Part shown: piece after piece, positions 2,431 to 54,099 of the stretch
How the letters are laid out: every line of letters begins with the position of its first letter
Numbering within the stretch: the stretch's first letter is position 1
DNA from: Paucimonas lemoignei
GTDB lineage: Bacteria > Pseudomonadota > Gammaproteobacteria > Pseudomonadales > Pseudomonadaceae
DNA length: 64,000 bases
Assembly (NCBI GenBank): GCA_900475325.1
Contig: LS483371.1
Coordinates: 2,790,001-2,854,000, forward strand
Reading direction: 5' to 3'
Notes under the pieces: generated by a model
Told to the model about the DNA's origin: nothing
The model's input: only the letters and a program-made list of their open reading frames with translations
Database searches by the model: none
Program-made: the position numbers and the translations under genes

Positions 2431-3151
2431 GATACTCTGCTGGGGTAACCCTAAAGCCATGCATATCCAGCAACGGCGGCGACGCTGATTCACCTTTGCG
2501 CCCTTACGGCGCCTCACTTTTGATAGAGCGCAAAAGTAAGCAAAACGCTCCCGCTCCTTTGTCCGGGTCTTCGCCGAGGCTCAGACTTCCCTCGCTCCGG
2601 CATTGCTCCGTGGGCCGCCGCAATGGGCCATCCATGGCCCGGTGCGGCTAACCCGGCATCCATGCCGGGTTGCCCACTACGCAATACCTGCGCTCGGCCG
2701 GCCACAAGTCGCAATTTGTGTCGCTCATAAATTTTGCGCACCCCCCAGAATCAAAAGCAGGGTGTGGGCCAGCAAGAGGTCATGCTGGAGAAATCTGCAA
2801 AGCAGATTTGCTTTTCGCTGTTGCTTTTCCTGCCGCGATTTCACAGGCGACGCAAAATGCGCGTCGGGAGGCTGAGTGGAGGTGCCGTGGGGTGGGTCGC
2901 TCGGCATGGATGCCGAGCGAGCGCCGTTGGGCCATGGATGGCCCGTCGGCGCGTGCCCGCCCCACGGTGCCGGAGCGAAGGAACCGCCGCGAAGCGGGGG
3001 CCGTACGCCAGCGCAGAGGTTTTGGTTACTTTTGGCACCAAAAGTGACCCGGCCGTCAGGACGGAACCTGACTCAGCAGCACTCGGATGCTGTTGTTGCT
3101 ACTCGATTCCAGGCGCAGCGCTTTGATTCGCCGAAGCTACAGACATACAAG
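2431..3151. repeat. Long composite palindromic intergenic element, copy A (about 0.72 kb)
   Basis: Not a gene. It is the same sequence as the blocks at about 9836-10551 and 30133-30868, in the opposite orientation. It carries several perfect hairpins: GGGCCATCCATGGCCC at 2626-2641, ACCCGGCATCCATGCCGGGT at 2651-2670, GCTCGGCATGGATGCCGAGC at 2899-2918, GGGCCATGGATGGCCC at 2929-2944 and ACTTTTGGCACCAAAAGT at 3028-3045. The left and right thirds are diverged inverted copies of one module with the order name-hairpin, GGGCCATGGATGGCCC, GCCGGAGCGA, GGTTACTTT, AAAGTGAC. Long open frames on both strands here follow from GC-rich palindromes and are not called as genes. I do not recognise a named family. 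Confidence 0.85.
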
Positions 3152-9835: not shown

Positions 9836-10551
9836 AATCAAAGCACTGCGCCTTGAATCGAGTTTCAACACAGCATCCGGGCGCTGCTGAGTCAGGTTCC
9901 GTCCTGACGGCCGGGTCACTTTTGGTGCCAAAAGTAACCAAAACCTCTGCGCTGGCGTACGGCCCCCGCTTCGCGGCGGTTCCTTCGCTCCGGCACCGTG
10001 GGGCGGGCACGCGCCGACGGGCCATCCATGGCCCAACGGCGCTCGCTCGGCATCCATGCCGAGCGACCCACCCCACGGCACCTCCACTCAGCCTCCCGAC
10101 GCGCATTTTGCGTCGTCTGGGAAATCGCGGCAGGAAAAGCAAAAGCAAATCTGCTTCGCAGATTTTTAGCATCACTTTCTTCCTGACCCACGCCCTGCTT
10201 TTGATTCTGGAAACCTGCGCAAAACGTAGGAGCGACACAAATTGCGACTTGTGGCCGGCCGAGCGCAGGTATTGCGCAGTGGGCAACCCGGCATGGATGC
10301 CGGGTTAGCCGCACCGGGCCATGGATGGCCCATTGCGGCGGCCCACGGAGCATTGCCGGAGCGAGGGAAGTCTGAGCCTTGGCGAAGACCCGGACAAAGG
10401 AGCGTGAGCGCTTTGGTTACTTTCGTCTGGGCCGGCATTCCGGCTTTTCGAAAGTGACGCGCCGTAAGGGCGCAAAGGTGACTCAGCGTCGCCGCCACTG
10501 CTGGATATACATGGTATTAGGGCTCTACCAACAGAGTATTCACAGGTCTTG
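9836..10551. repeat. Long composite palindromic intergenic element, copy C (about 0.72 kb)
   Basis: Same orientation as the copy at 30133 and inverted relative to that at 2431. It has the same hairpin series: ACTTTTGGTGCCAAAAGT at about 9917, GGGCCATCCATGGCCC at about 10019, GCTCGGCATCCATGCCGAGC at about 10044, then ACCCGGCATGGATGCCGGGT and GGGCCATGGATGGCCC near 10290-10330. It fills the whole gap between two converging genes (yebC-like and LRR-kinase). The frames seen inside it translate the same palindromes in copies A and B and are not called as genes. Confidence 0.85.
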
Positions 10552-16144: not shown

Positions 16145-16173
16145 AAAAAAAAGACCCGGAAAAAATCCGGGTC
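16145..16173 (-). terminator. Intrinsic terminator of PrrF
   Basis: 8-bp stem (16153-16160 with 16166-16173), 5-nt loop, and a U8 tract on the minus strand (plus-strand A run 16145-16152). Confidence 0.9.
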
Positions 16174-16257
16174 AAAAACCGTGATTAGCCTGATGAGGAG
16201 ATAATCCAGAAGCCGACCTAAGACTTCTGAGTTATCCAACTGACCTTGCGGCCAGTT
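16145..16257 (-). ncRNA. prrF: PrrF iron-responsive small RNA
   Basis: About 113 nt, the size of PrrF1/PrrF2. On the minus strand the predicted RNA starts with AACTGG, forms a 5' hairpin (AACTGGCC...GGTCAGTT), and then contains TCTCCTCATCAGGCTAATCA (about 16182-16201). As I recall, that is the conserved seed by which PrrF pairs with mRNAs of iron-rich proteins such as sodB and aconitase. It ends in a GACCCGGA/TCCGGGTC terminator with eight U residues. A 15/19 Fur box overlaps its promoter. Only one copy is seen, unlike the tandem pair of P. aeruginosa. Ends are inferred, not mapped. Confidence 0.9.
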
Positions 16258-16260
16258 GCT

Positions 16261-16279
16261 TGCAATAATAATCATTATC
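16261..16279. promoter_or_regulatory. Fur box controlling prrF
   Basis: TGCAATAATAATCATTATC matches the Fur consensus at 15 of 19 positions and lies immediately upstream of the inferred PrrF 5' end. Iron-bound Fur would block transcription. Confidence 0.85.
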
Positions 16280-16342
16280 ATTTGCAAGTCAAAGCTTTTT
16301 ATCGCCCCCATTGAAAAAAATTCAGAAATCGCCTGACGCCCG

Positions 16343-28735: not shown

Positions 28736-29899
28736 TTATTTGGACTCATTGAACAACTCACGCCCAATCAGCATCCGGCGGATCTCGCTGGTCCCGGCGC
28801 CGATCTCGTAGAGTTTGGCGTCGCGCAACAGTCGGCCAGCGGGGAATTCGTTGATGTAGCCGTTGCCACCCAGAATCTGGATCGTCTCCAGGGCCATCTG
28901 TGTCGCGCGCTCGGCGCTGTAGAGGATCACGCCTGCGGCGTCCTTGCGGGTGGTTTCGCCTCGCTCGCAGGCTTGCGCGACGGCGTACAGATAGGCGCGG
29001 CTGGCGTTGAGCTGGGTGTACATGTCAGCGATCTTGCCCTGGATCAGCTGAAATTCGCCGATGCTCTGGCCGAATTGCTTGCGGTCATGGATATAGGGCA
29101 CGACCACGTCCATGCAGGCTTGCATGATCCCGGTGGGCCCGCCAGCCAGCACCACGCGTTCGTAATCCAGCCCGCTCATCAGCACCTTCACGCCACCGTC
29201 CAGGGCGCCGAGCAGGTTTTCTTCCGGGACCTCCACGTCGTCGAAAAACAGCTCGCAGGTGTTGGAGCCGCGCATGCCCAGCTTGTCGAACTTGTTGCCA
29301 CGGGAAAACCCTTTCCAGTCGCGCTCGACGATGAATGCGCTGATGCCATGGGCGCCTTTTTGCAAGTCAGTTTTGGCGTAGATCACATAAGTGTTGGCGT
29401 CCGGCCCGTTGGTGATCCAGGTCTTGCTGCCATTGAGGATGAAGTGATCGCCACGCTTTTCGGCACGCAGCTTCATCGACACCACATCAGAACCTGCGTT
29501 GGGCTCACTCATGGCCAACGCCCCGACATGCTCGCCGCTGATGAGGCGGGGCAGGTACTGGGCTTTCTGCGCGGCGGTGCCGTTGCGGTTGATCTGATTC
29601 ACACACAGGTTCGAGTGCGCGCCGTAAGACAACGCCACCGACGCCGAGCCACGGCTGATTTCTTCCATGGCCACCACATGCGCCAGATACCCCAGCCCGG
29701 CGCCGCCATATTGTTCGTCGACGGTGATGCCCAGTAGACCCATATCGCCGAACTTGCGCCACATATCAGCCGGGAACAGATTATCCCGATCGATCTGCGC
29801 AGCGCGGGGAGTAATTTCAGCTGCGACGAAGGACTGAACCTGATCACGCAACATATCAATCGTTTCGCCCAGAGCGAAGTTAAGGCTGGGGTAACTCAT
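28736..29899 (-). CDS. liuA: Isovaleryl-CoA dehydrogenase
   Basis: 387 aa FAD-dependent acyl-CoA dehydrogenase. Conserved segments: [48 protein letters not shown] and the end [20 protein letters not shown]. The early [14 protein letters not shown] stretch is characteristic of isovaleryl-CoA dehydrogenases. It is the first step after isovaleryl-CoA formation and the first gene of liuABCD, with a LiuR-type palindrome 43 bp upstream. Confidence 0.94.
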
Positions 29900-29955: not shown

Positions 29956-30132
29956 GCCTGGGGCAGTCAGGATGTCAACTGACTGTATGAGGCGTAATCA
30001 GCGGTGGTGCAATGCATCAGGATTTTCGCGGTCGTAAGAGCGGCCGAGCGGCGTTACGCTTTAGCCGCGAGCGGCAGTGCAGCCACTGAAGATTTAGCGG
30101 CATGACCAACGTTCTCGGTTGAAGCCGCTCCT

Positions 30133-30868
30133 TGTATGTCTGTAGTTTCGACGAATCAGAGGTATGCCTTTAACCGAGTGCCGACAACAGCATCCGGGTG
30201 CTGCTGGGTCAGGTTCCGTCCTGACGGCCGGGTCACTTTTGGTGCCAAAAGTAACCAAAACCTCTGCGCTGGCGTACGGCCCCCGCTTCGCGGCGGTTCC
30301 TTCGCTCCGGCACCGTGGGGCGGGCACGCGCCGACGGGCCATCCATGGCCCAACGGCGCTCGCTCGGCATCCATGCCGAGCGACCCACCCCACGGCACCT
30401 CCACTCAGCCTCCCGACGCGCATTTTGCGTCGTCTGTGAAATTGCGGCAGGAAAGCAAAAAGCAAATCTGCTTAGCAGATTTCTCCAGCATGACCTCACT
30501 TCTTCCTGACTCACAAGCTGCTTTTGATTCTGGGGGTATGCGCAAAATTTATGAGCGACACACATTGCGACTTGTGGCCGGCCGAGCGCAGGTATTGCGC
30601 AGTGGGCAACCCGGCATGGATGCCGGGTTAGCCGCACCGGGCCATGGATGGCCCATTGCGGCGGCCCACGGAGCAATGCCGGAGTGAGGGAAGTCTGAGC
30701 CTTGGCGAAGACCCGGACAAAGGAGCGGAAGCGCTTTGGTTACTTTCGTCTGGGCCGGCATTCCGGCTTTTCGAAAGTGACGCGCCGTAAGGGCGCAAAG
30801 GTGAATCAGCGTCGCCGCCGCTGCTGGATATAGATGTTTTAGGGCGCTCCCAACAGAGTATCTACAGG
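30133..30868. repeat. Long composite palindromic intergenic element, copy B (about 0.74 kb)
   Basis: Same orientation as copy C and nearly identical to it across the hairpin blocks: ACTTTTGGTGCCAAAAGT at about 30235, GGGCCATCCATGGCCC at about 30338, GCTCGGCATCCATGCCGAGC at about 30363, ACCCGGCATGGATGCCGGGT at about 30610. It ends with CTGGATATAGATG...CAGAGTATC, as in the other copies. It sits between the liuA promoter and the 3' end of the CrcZ-family RNA. The boundary next to liuA (TGTATGTCTGTAG, about 30134) is shared with copy A. Confidence 0.85.
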
Positions 30869-30885
30869 GGCACTGAGGATCCGTA

Positions 30886-30916
30886 GAAAGCAGAAAGGGG
30901 AGCCTGGGCTCCCCTT
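30886..30916 (-). terminator. Intrinsic terminator of the CrcZ-family RNA
   Basis: Stem AAGGGGAGCC / GGCTCCCCTT (30895-30916), with a two-base loop and a T-rich tail on the minus strand. Confidence 0.8.
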
Positions 30917-31273
30917 CAAATTACTGCATGCTCTTTATTATTGTTGGGCGGCCTGTTGTTGTTTTTGGTGGCCGTACCCTTGTCGCTGTTTTTGAGCGAT
31001 CCCCATTCGGGATCAAGAGCAAACGTATTTTTTTGAGCGCTGATGCTGCTTCTACCTCTGCCTCTACAGCAGTGATCCAACCAGTGGGACGCTACCTGAA
31101 GGTAGTTTTATTGTTCTCTGCCCGGTTGCGAGGTTCTCTTTCGAGGCCCTCCGAAAAGCGATCCACTCCAAAAAAATCTGTTAGCTGCGCCTCTGTCCGT
31201 GTTGTTCTTGTTATGTCAGAGCCGTACATGTTGTTTTTATTGGGTTACTGCATATTTTTTGTTTTTGTTGTGC
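30890..31273 (-). ncRNA. crcY: CrcZ-family small RNA (CrcY/CrcX type), Hfq/Crc decoy
   Basis: About 384 nt on the minus strand. The inferred 5' end GCACAACAAAAAC lies the proper distance from a sigma54 promoter. The RNA carries repeated A-rich CA motifs (AAAAACAAC, AAGAACAAC, AACAATAAAA, AAAAACAACAACAGG, CAACAATAATAAAG), the binding sites by which CrcZ-type RNAs titrate Hfq/Crc and relieve catabolite repression. It ends in a strong hairpin. In P. putida crcY lies beside the HMG-CoA lyase gene, as here; the crcX name used in P. syringae is the alternative. Ends are inferred. Confidence 0.85.
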
Positions 31274-31455: not shown

Positions 31456-32355
31456 TTATCCGACCAGCCGGGCTATTGCGACTCGTGAGCCATTGGGCCG
31501 CCCCAGAACCTCGGATATCCGCTGGCCCGCCAGGATCAACCGGTCCAGATCGACGCCGGTTTCGATACCCAGCCCTTGCAGCATATACAGCACGTCTTCA
31601 CTGGCGACATTCCCGCTGGCACCTTTGGCGTAAGGGCAACCGCCCAGGCCCGCCACCGAGCTGTCGAACACCTGGATGCCCTCAAGCAGGCTGGCGTAGA
31701 TGTTGGCCAACGCCTGGCCATAGGTGTCATGGAAATGCCCGGCAATCTTGCCGCGCGGTATCTGCCTGGCCACTTCCTCGATCAACGTTCTGGTCGCGCC
31801 CGGGGTGCCGACGCCAATGGTGTCGCCCAGCGACACTTCATAGCAGCCCATGTCGATCAGCTCGTTCGCCACAGAGGCAACCTGCTGCGGGGCGATCTGG
31901 CCGTCGTAAGGGCAGCCCAGTACACAGGACACATAGCCACGCACGTGGATCCCGTGTAGCCGCGCCGCCTGCATGATCGGCGCAAAACGTTCGAGGCTTT
32001 CGCTGATCGAGCAATTGATATTGCGTTGGGAGAACGCCTCCGAGGCGGCAGCGAAGACAGCCACTTCTCTGGCACCTGCGGCGAGGGCGTCCTCAAAACC
32101 TCGCAGGTTGGGCGTCAGCGCTGAGTAGGTCACCCCATCACGACGCTGTATGCCGGTAAAGGTCTCAGCAGAGCCCGCCATCTGCGGGACCCATTTGGGG
32201 GACACGAAACTGCCGACTTCAATATGGCTCAACCCGGCGCTGGACAGGTCATCCACCAGCTGGACTTTGTCCGCAGTGCTGATTGATTGTGCTTCGTTCT
32301 GCAGGCCATCCCTGGGACCCACCTCGACCAGACGCACTTTCTTGGGAATATGCAT
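31456..32355 (-). CDS. liuE: Hydroxymethylglutaryl-CoA lyase
   Basis: 299 aa, also called MvaB. VEVGPRDGLQNE at the start, GYVSCVLGCPYDG in the middle, and the catalytic loop region GLGGCPYAKGASGNVASED near residue 235. It cleaves HMG-CoA to acetoacetate and acetyl-CoA, the last liu step. It follows liuR by 30 bp. In P. aeruginosa it is the last gene of liuRABCDE; here it is separated from liuABCD by ~1.5 kb containing the CrcZ-family RNA and copy B. Confidence 0.94.
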   Translation of the reverse strand: MHIPKKVRLVEVGPRDGLQNEAQSISTADKVQLVDDLSSAGLSHIEVGSFVSPKWVPQMAGSAETFTGIQRRDGVTYSALTPNLRGFEDALAAGAREVAVFAAASEAFSQRNINCSISESLERFAPIMQAARLHGIHVRGYVSCVLGCPYDGQIAPQQVASVANELIDMGCYEVSLGDTIGVGTPGATRTLIEEVARQIPRGKIAGHFHDTYGQALANIYASLLEGIQVFDSSVAGLGGCPYAKGASGNVASEDVLYMLQGLGIETGVDLDRLILAGQRISEVLGRPNGSRVAIARLVG

Positions 32356-46252: not shown

Positions 46253-46294
46253 TTCAACAGCGCCCGCCCACCGCGGGTTTAGTCATTACTGTGT

Positions 46295-46500
46295 TTCGGG
46301 CCGGTCTCCGGGCTTGCGAGGGGTGGAACGCAGAACGTTCGACCTGCTGGAGTCGCCTTCCCATGCCGTTGATCGGCACAGTGGCTGTGACTCCACACTC
46401 GCTTACCGTTGCGGGGGCAGCGCCGGACTTGCACAAGCTCAAGGCTTGAGCGCACCGGTTTCCCGTTTCACCCTGTGAAGGGCACCCGTAACAAGGTGTG
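46295..46500 (-). promoter_or_regulatory. Cobalamin riboswitch controlling cbtB-cbtA-cobE-cobM
   Basis: On the minus strand: GGGAAACCGGTG, then the B12 box GCCCCCGCAACGGTAAG (46404-46420), CACTG, and the closing AAGCCCGGAGACCGGC (near 46300). All conserved blocks of the AdoCbl aptamer are present in order. It should shut off cobalt uptake and B12 synthesis when cobalamin is abundant. Confidence 0.95.
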
Positions 46501-46589
46501 TAGGAGAGCATGGCGCCGTGCGCAACGTCAATCAGTTGATTGACCTGCCTGCGGCCACTGCGTAGCCTTGCGGGTTCGAGGTTCTCCGG

Positions 46590-46757
46590 CCAGTCATTGA
46601 CGCGGTCAGGAGCTAAGAAGGGAACGCGGTCGTGCCGCGGCTGCCCCCGCAACTGTGAACGGTTATCTTCATCGCTCAGCCACTGCCAACCGCGGGAAGG
46701 CGCGATGACGGCTCCCAGCCATCAAAGGGAGCGCCGTAAGCCAGGAGACCTGCCTCG
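46590..46757 (+). promoter_or_regulatory. Cobalamin riboswitch controlling cobW-cobN-chlI/chlD
   Basis: On the plus strand: AAGAAGGGAACGCGGT, B12 box GCTGCCCCCGCAACTGTGAA (46640-46659), CACTG (46681), and AAGCCAGGAGACCTGCC (46738-46754). It is a second complete aptamer ~90 bp from the first and pointing the other way. 130 nt of leader separate it from cobW. Confidence 0.95.
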
Positions 46758-46888
46758 ATCCGGGCTATGTATAGCGCCCGACGAATTCTCACTACAACCG
46801 GGCGGGGTGATCCGGTGGCGAATCCAGCCCTGTGCCAGCGCGCAAGGTTTTCGTCCCGTTTGCCCGCCGTATTGCCAAGGGGCATCCG

Positions 46889-53717: not shown

Positions 53718-53780
53718 GCTTTAGATCTGCTTTAGATCTGCTTTAGATCTGATCTTGATCTTGATCTTGATCTTGATCTT
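53718..53780. repeat. Nested tandem repeats (11 bp x 3, then 6 bp x 5)
   Basis: GCTTTAGATCT occurs three times in a row (53718-53750), followed by GATCTT five times (53751-53780). Both units share GATCT. It is intergenic, and copy number probably varies. Confidence 0.9.
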
Positions 53781-53816
53781 AAGCGCCCCGTCAAACCACG
53801 CTGGCCGGAATTCGAT

Positions 53817-54045
53817 ATTAAATCGGGGGTAAACCGGCAGGACGCCGGTTTAGCCGCACTGGGCCAGGGATGGCCCTTTGCGGCGACCCCCGATTTAATG
53901 TCGGATTACGGGCATGCCGAGCCTAGGCGAGGGACCGAGTGGTGGGGCACAGACCTTTTGGTTACTTTTGGGGCGTTTGCCAAAAGTGACCCGCTGTAAG
54001 AGCGGAACCATAAGCAGCCGTTACCGCAGCAACGGATATGCCCGT
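53817..54045. repeat. Solitary half-module of the long palindromic element (copy D)
   Basis: It repeats in order the parts of one half of copies A-C: AAACCGGC/GCCGGTTT hairpin, TTAGCCGCAC, GGGCC/GGCCC hairpin, TTGCGGCG, CGAGGGA, TTTTGGTTACTTTTGG, CCAAAAGTGACCCGC, GTAAGAGCGGAACC. It adds a perfect 14-bp outer inverted repeat, ATTAAATCGGGGGT (53817-53830) and ACCCCCGATTTAAT (53886-53899). It lies between converging genes. Confidence 0.75.
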
Positions 54046-54099
54046 AAAACCAATTTCGCCGGCTTCAAATCGCACAAAGGCCGACGAAGTTGCCGACGA

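Follow-up and report, generated by a model that had tools for sequence, protein, structure and literature searches.

The window, as we call the whole 64,000-nucleotide stretch of the Paucimonas lemoignei genome that was analysed, contains three copies of a composite palindromic repeat of about 0.72 kb, which an earlier note had described from the letters of the sequence, and in addition a single module of a wider, genus-wide form, which that note overlooked. The divergent arms of copy 1 read outward from the centre of the element. The parts of the repeat found in the window are as follows.

2431 to 3151, no strand: composite element copy 1 (arm A, centre, arm B), from BLAST; the site in the relative G115 is without a module
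2588 to 2699, minus strand: copy 1 arm A, core of a TwoAYGGAY-like module with two AUGGAU hairpins, 128.7 bits
2732 to 2839, no strand: copy 1 centre with the AAATCTGC-GCAGATTT hairpin, from the sequence and the limits of the arms
2870 to 2982, plus strand: copy 1 arm B, core module, 109.8 bits
9836 to 10551, no strand: composite element copy 2, from BLAST; the G115 site is a degenerate remnant
9981 to 10093, minus strand: copy 2 arm B, core module, from cmscan and covariance model
10257 to 10368, plus strand: copy 2 arm A, core module, from cmscan and covariance model
30131 to 30868, no strand: composite element copy 3, abutting the 3' end of a CrcZ-family sRNA, from BLAST and Rfam
30298 to 30410, minus strand: copy 3 arm B, core module, from cmscan and covariance model
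30580 to 30691, plus strand: copy 3 arm A, core module, from cmscan and covariance model
53760 to 54061, plus strand: single module of the genus-wide form, core 53803 to 53913 (cmscan 53799 to 53917), from Rfam and covariance model

The single module has REP-like palindromes upstream of it, and its outer stem differs much in sequence from those of the composite copies. With the CrcZ-family sRNA whose 3' end touches copy 3 (window 30862-31271, minus strand; Rfam), a decoy for Crc/Hfq adjoins what may be one for Rsm. Beside this sRNA lie a 387-aa ORF (28736-29899) and a 299-aa ORF (31456-32355), which we take to resemble an acyl-CoA dehydrogenase and an HMG-CoA lyase, respectively, and the setting as a whole presumably recalls that of CrcY. 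Rfam also places a PrrF-family sRNA at 16145-16292 (minus strand) and two divergent cobalamin riboswitches side by side at 46282-46504 (minus strand) and 46562-46771 (plus strand).

A BLAST search with copy 1 recovers both other window copies (9836-10539 and 30131-30862, 90% identity each) and yields 40 matching places in the host genome (G000, 5.92 Mb, one contig) with 86 to 100% identity, one place found in two pieces being merged to one, which confirms that the three copies are real. Arms A and B of each copy match each other at 67% in opposite orientation, bearing out the description of a copy as two diverged versions of one module facing opposite ways. The further statement that all copies have the same ends is only roughly true, since an alignment of the 40 copies is nearly invariant in the interior and frays at both outer ends. 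At least three of the 40 copies (1298337, 2635599, and 3752723) are truncated, with foreign sequence at the break that we take to resemble insertion-sequence ends, and they were probably hit by insertion sequences targeting palindromes. The foreign end is identical in copies 2635599 and 3752723.

All seven modules of the window pass the gathering cut-off of the Rfam family TwoAYGGAY (RF01731), scoring 46.8 to 51.2 bits in cmscan against a cut-off of 43; the earlier note, which recognised no named family, was wrong on this point. Their cmsearch E-values of 4e-27 to 9e-35 exclude a chance match, one of the seven window modules and copy 1 arm A being among the 43 sequences used for model building. 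The covariance model R1, built from these 43 diverse modules, finds 144 modules in the host genome, a lower bound because 150 of 4,504 candidates were scored. Grouped at less than 1.5 kb, they form 80 loci, of which 40 are of the composite type and 40 of the wider form.

A DNA search through Pseudomonas, one of the checks that had been suggested, gives a match in 269 of 298 sampled genomes (host genome included, two candidates scored per genome), beside the roughly 40 composite copies in the host genome itself. With the model, stricter filters and at most 64 candidates scored per genome, 47 of 59 Pseudomonas genomes match, with 0 to at least 64 matches each; under these settings a zero is no proof of absence. 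Class-wide, RF01731 matches 18 of 274 genomes at an E-value of at most 0.001, with 14 over the cut-off, including the host genome and one other of its family, and it matches none of 14 well-known control genomes, E. coli included. The exact two-hairpin pattern, which in the contig and viral scans required ATGGAT in both loops, is found among the matches listed in contigs labelled Thalassolituus, Shewanella, Nevskia, and Stutzerimonas and also in Lysobacteraceae, Saccharospirillaceae, and Verrucomicrobia contigs, several of the contigs outside the genus being MAGs. Twelve viral contigs match the pattern as well. In five IMG/VR loci (L243, L245, L248, L249, and L250) the module match starts at the identical coordinate 2685, which suggests a common prophage or tailocin-like neighbourhood. 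A plasmid or phage origin of the repeat was considered and rejected, two plasmid records and one phage record matching over 7 to 12% of the query.

The module core is very likely a folded, strand-specific RNA. RNAalifold places 52 base pairs on 80 aligned modules, and 39 of them show double compensatory changes. This structure, extended by hand, was examined for the core in 43 modules drawn from the same 80, where both partners have changed in 30 of 37 pairs and the observed covariation is reached by none of 500 shuffles. In these modules 94.7% of the cells pair, against 37 to 48% when the partners are slid by one to three columns, a comparison that favours the unslid version because the sequences are shared with the derivation of the structure. 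Twenty-five modules from gammaproteobacterial genomes outside the genus, none of them used in model building, change on both sides at 36 of 37 pairs, and 92.9% of their cells pair against 35 to 39% when slid, the pairing leaning towards the model because the alignment was fitted to it. The compensatory changes, the slide tests and the distant modules together lend strong support to a structured RNA, one of several possibilities that had been raised for the element, and the proposed covariance check of the hairpins comes out in its favour.

The outer stem is hypervariable in sequence and keeps its complementarity; it often contains a GCA/GGA internal loop, and some modules pair it fully (by eye). 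Two modules folded singly give the same core structure (z -6.7 and -7.3), and the AUGGAU loop of a singly folded module is predicted to shrink to 4 nt by pairing of its outer A and U. A full 721-nt transcript is predicted to fold arm to arm (z -8.0 and -9.2), so that the loops could be buried or masked, and local hairpins could be favoured by co-transcriptional folding.

Across the module alignments the stems vary freely and the loops hardly at all. Because the pattern scans required ATGGAT in both loops, the loop statistics rest on the distant set and on the 32 of the 80 aligned modules that were found without a loop pattern. In the latter, loop 1 is ATGGAT in 17 modules, AGGGAT in 4, AAGGAT in 3, and AGGAC in 8, and loop 2 is ATGGAT in 23, AGGGAT in 7, and AAGGAT in 2. 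All 25 distant modules contain A(N)GGA in loop 1, and 20 of 25 fit A(N)GGAX in loop 2, the five exceptions being ACGAC (twice), TGGAT, CGGAT, and AAGGGA; here the loop rule is partly ascertained, since the models for distant modules were built on AYGGAY-type loops. In alignment A4, A(N)GGA[T/C] is present in 67 of 78 rows for loop 1 and 66 of 78 for loop 2, the remaining rows mostly representing fragments or matches on the reverse strand. Both hairpins have a loop closed by C-G in 43 of 43 modules, and the two loops lie about 30 nt apart in the sequence.

These features correspond to a published recognition rule. High-affinity binding of RsmE has been described for an ANGGAX hexaloop that sits immediately on a stem and is closed by a C-G pair, and in RsmZ stem-loops SL3 and SL4 the N is absent and the affinity for RsmE is lower (PMC4005645). 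NMR work gives the consensus as ANGGAN and reports at most four contiguous pairs for most SELEX hairpins, which makes the module stems longer than those of most SELEX ligands (PMC7652899). In sequence, the module loops match this RsmE/CsrA rule, including the tolerated loss of N, and the modules as a rule carry two A(N)GGAX loops on C-G-closed stems, as expected of a Csr/Rsm-binding RNA with at least two sites. The idea that TwoAYGGAY binds CsrA is not new, having been proposed earlier from motif matches (PMC4333381); the pattern of loop variation and the repeat biology are new relative to that source. Three csrA genes are present in the host genome, and csrA is found in 39 of 39 genomes examined. 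It is also present in 11 examined Pseudomonas genomes that have no module match, so its presence is permissive only and discriminates nothing. We are fairly confident, judging from the loops and stems, that a sense module would bind an RsmA/RsmE dimer with both loops once it is transcribed.

The modules are arranged in a characteristic way. In the host genome, 64 of the 80 loci are divergent pairs ('-+') and 16 are single modules, with no convergent or tandem pair among them. In 40 regions of 40 other Pseudomonas genomes there are 28 pairs of neighbouring modules, 25 of them divergent and three tandem, a rate that is not that of a random sample because the regions were taken from the top of the hit list, some of them chosen for two closely spaced matches. 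The loci found by pattern, together with the window, have 46 divergent, 6 convergent, and 2 tandem neighbours. Outside the genus, a hand count of modules lying within 1 kb of each other gives 11 pairs, with 8 divergent, 2 convergent, and 1 tandem, a weak neighbour of 14 bits and an overlapping match on the opposite strand being set aside. In other Pseudomonas the centre that separates the arms is mostly unconserved (127 to 1,255 bp in 24 pairs) and often holds REPs (by eye). With two modules placed back to back, a sense module reads outward on either strand.

Convergent genes flank 22 of the 40 composite copies, compared with 60 of 334 background gaps, and tandem genes flank 17; only 1 of 40 lies between divergent genes, compared with 105 of 334 (background gaps being those above 100 bp, with gene calls from our own ORF scorer and not a standard annotator). 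The earlier observation that the copies lie downstream of genes thus fits 39 of the 40 and fails for the one between divergent genes. Where the flanking genes converge (22 copies), the stop codons precede the edges of the element by 0 to 177 bp, with a median of about 57 (hand count). A protein-coding element was rejected: ORFs exist on both strands, but six of the larger ones in copies 1 and 3 have no Pfam match, in agreement with the earlier impression that no transposase is evident, and the module alignment contains single-base indels. An internal promoter was likewise rejected, as a scan of copy 1 found no sigma-70-like promoter.

Comparison with relatives shows that the element is insertion-polymorphic. 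G115, which among the sampled relatives matches the composite form best over its full length, has no intact module at any of ten examined sites, which comprise those of copies 1 and 2 and the first 8 of 14 prepared sites. Nine of the ten are without a model match, and the copy 2 site keeps a degenerate remnant of 25.7 bits; the site near 2642204 holds about 1.3 kb of other sequence. At sites L345 to L351 there are REP-like palindromes, paired at five and single at two (by eye), as if REP-bearing slots were preferred targets or the elements replaced each other. At the gene pair around copy 2 the two flanks are 979 bp apart here and 160 to 385 bp apart in 16 listed relatives, so the full element is absent from the latter, and in the 7 of these that were inspected other short, often REP-like, sequence lies between the flanks. 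At the copy 3 site the flanks are separated by 54 to 77 bp in G022, G018, and G020, leaving no room for the element, a result resting on short left-flank matches of 29 to 42 nt; six further relatives have about 2 kb between these flanks. The flank comparisons therefore indicate that the element comes and goes at syntenic sites, which are otherwise often REP sites.

Insertion polymorphism of this kind, with 10 of 10 G115 sites lacking an intact module, is what is seen in MITEs, and the arms form long imperfect inverted repeats. The tree of copies is poorly resolved, and copies from G115 fall among those of the host genome. Three attempts at syntenic sites resolved no target duplication because the intergenic sequence and junctions are too diverged, and neither the 40 aligned copies nor the syntenic sites reveal a sharp element end. 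The earlier suggestion of a non-autonomous mobile element, and the comparison of flanks proposed for it, are therefore borne out by the polymorphic sites in relatives but not by a transposase, a target duplication or a defined end. Dependence on RAYT was rejected as unsupported: in a search of 24 genomes for PF01797 (Y1 transposase/RAYT domain) and that domain alone, G015 gave no match to it in spite of 44 module matches, which argues against RAYT as the sole mover.

We consider it rather probable that the element is a non-autonomous and probably mobile repeat that disperses dual-site Rsm/Csr-binding RNA modules as decoys or 3'UTRs. Its unit is a module of 260 to 300 nt with a TwoAYGGAY (RF01731) core, in which a long outer stem leads to two hairpins, each presenting an A(N)GGAX loop closed by C-G, with the loops about 30 nt apart. 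Transcription of the element would most simply come about by read-through from a gene with its stop codon just upstream, and the sense module would then be bound by an RsmA/RsmE (CsrA-family) dimer with one hairpin per binding face. Together, the roughly 150 modules could act as a dispersed decoy for Rsm proteins; alternatively, the repeats may be Rsm-binding 3'UTRs of the genes that they follow. That many modules titrate Rsm proteins or mark the 3'UTRs of preceding genes is a weaker proposition, which we would place between possible and rather probable.

The same observations can be read as those of a selfish non-autonomous element, whose hairpins, as single-stranded DNA, would mark it for a trans-acting transposase, as in an oversized REPIN, and whose GGA loops would be contacts of that enzyme. 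The patchy copy number, with genomes ranging between 0 and at least 64 module matches, and the polymorphic sites in relatives are consistent with this, as is the association with REPs: 22 of 40 copies have a REP motif no more than 100 bp from the B-side end and 5 of 40 from the A-side end, compared with 27 of 304 control gaps that contain one (a few hand-made motifs, control gaps scanned up to 220 bp and flanks over 100 bp), and REP-like palindromes take the place of the element at 7 of 7 G115 sites inspected by eye. However, the loops conform closely to the CsrA rule, the occasional loss of N included, G015 combines its 44 module matches with the lack of a PF01797 match, and neither a Pfam-recognisable ORF nor a sharp end was found, so that we regard a purely selfish element as unlikely.

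Less probable again is a bidirectional transcription-end module, in which antisense hairpins near each end would stop the transcripts of convergent genes. Halting incoming convergent transcripts would explain the placement and make the insertion harmless, and both the short distance between stop codons and element edges in the 22 convergent cases and the presence, close to the left edge of copy 1, of a GCGCC-type hairpin with CTCACTTTTG after it point in this direction. Yet copy 1 contains 2 terminator-like sites where 1.1 +/- 1.0 are expected, and terminators need neither a conserved outward-strand A(N)GGAX loop nor a covarying fold of 260 nt. We give least credence, and very little, to a site that organises the chromosome, lying for instance in its terminus half. 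In the host genome neither form of the element is spread uniformly between ori and ter (KS p = 9e-7 and 7e-5, with no other repeat as control); both are enriched towards the terminus, and the model search detected neither in the first 0.83 Mb after dnaA. In the complete genomes G010 (15 of 15 listed positions) and G046 (7 of 17), which were read without located origins, however, no terminus clustering is apparent by eye. Terminus location was therefore rejected as a general rule, and the nucleoid-protein site considered in the earlier note finds no specific support; strand-specific loops would also be unexpected for a site in double-stranded DNA.

Taken as a mobile carrier of Rsm-binding RNA, the repeat shares features with several known systems. 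Like other TwoAYGGAY members it has two adjacent hairpins with AYGGAY-type loops and covarying stems, but its conserved 3' part extends further, and some of its loops (AGGGAT, AAGGAT, and AGGAC) depart from AYGGAY. Rfam types TwoAYGGAY as cis-regulatory, whereas the repeat occurs in high copy as divergent pairs past stop codons and so is not in the position that this type implies. The discoverers of the family described a probable RNA that is not cis-regulatory, from human gut, gammaproteobacteria, and Clostridiales (PMC2864571), and two tandem G-A pairs have been noted in one of its stems (PMC4333381). Several A(N)GGAX hairpin loops are also the mark of the sponge RNAs RsmX, RsmY, and RsmZ and CsrB and CsrC (PMC4005645, PMC7366521). 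These are few dedicated sRNA genes, usually expressed under GacA, in contrast to a dispersed repeat with at least 144 modules in one genome and, in the scan of copy 1, no dedicated promoter; judged by sequence evidence alone, the repeat may work like an Rsm sponge.

The repeat also resembles REPs, REPINs, and BIMEs, which RAYTs move, in being palindromic, intergenic, abundant, and patchy among species and in using the same sites. REPs are hairpins of 20 to 40 bp (PMC3733652), and the module, with at least 260 nt, is about ten times longer and is not a short RAYT-dependent hairpin, as G015 illustrates; it occupies REP sites but is no REP itself. Among the repeats reported in 2009 from P. fluorescens SBW25, R200 is 320 bp long with 47 copies, and the tail-repeat-tail placement prevails in the largest three of the six families (PMC2718517). 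R200, R26, and R6 are likewise intergenic repeat families, and the passages that describe them mention no RNA or Rsm role (PMC2718517). Some of these P. fluorescens families may be the same DNA as the repeats described here. Among the matches listed for the open-licence literature, no paper ties these repeats to Rsm/Csr, none presents TwoAYGGAY as a divergent-pair repeat, and there is no relevant sequence match.

A few dedicated sponge RNAs are generally held responsible for the level of free RsmA/CsrA. Provided that at least some of the repeats are transcribed, the 144 modules of the host genome would add about 290 further predicted loops, two per module. The number of modules varies between species from none detected to many, and this would, if the Rsm-binding reading is true, be a concrete and testable source of species differences in Gac/Rsm control. 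In a broader and more tentative proposal, which we hold to be possible but rather less than probable, this would be a gammaproteobacterial mobile repeat with a dual-site CsrA/RsmA RNA as its payload: copy number would set free RsmA/E, each upstream gene would gain an Rsm-binding 3'UTR, CsrA might in turn serve the element in protecting or routing its RNA, and TwoAYGGAY would be half of a transposable Csr decoy and not a cis-regulatory leader. If true, abundant intergenic repeats of Pseudomonas would have a possible function and the orphan TwoAYGGAY family a functional context. The element would then be a model for a mobile repeat that carries the ligand of a global RNA-binding regulator, and its spreading would scatter hundreds of regulator decoys across the genome.
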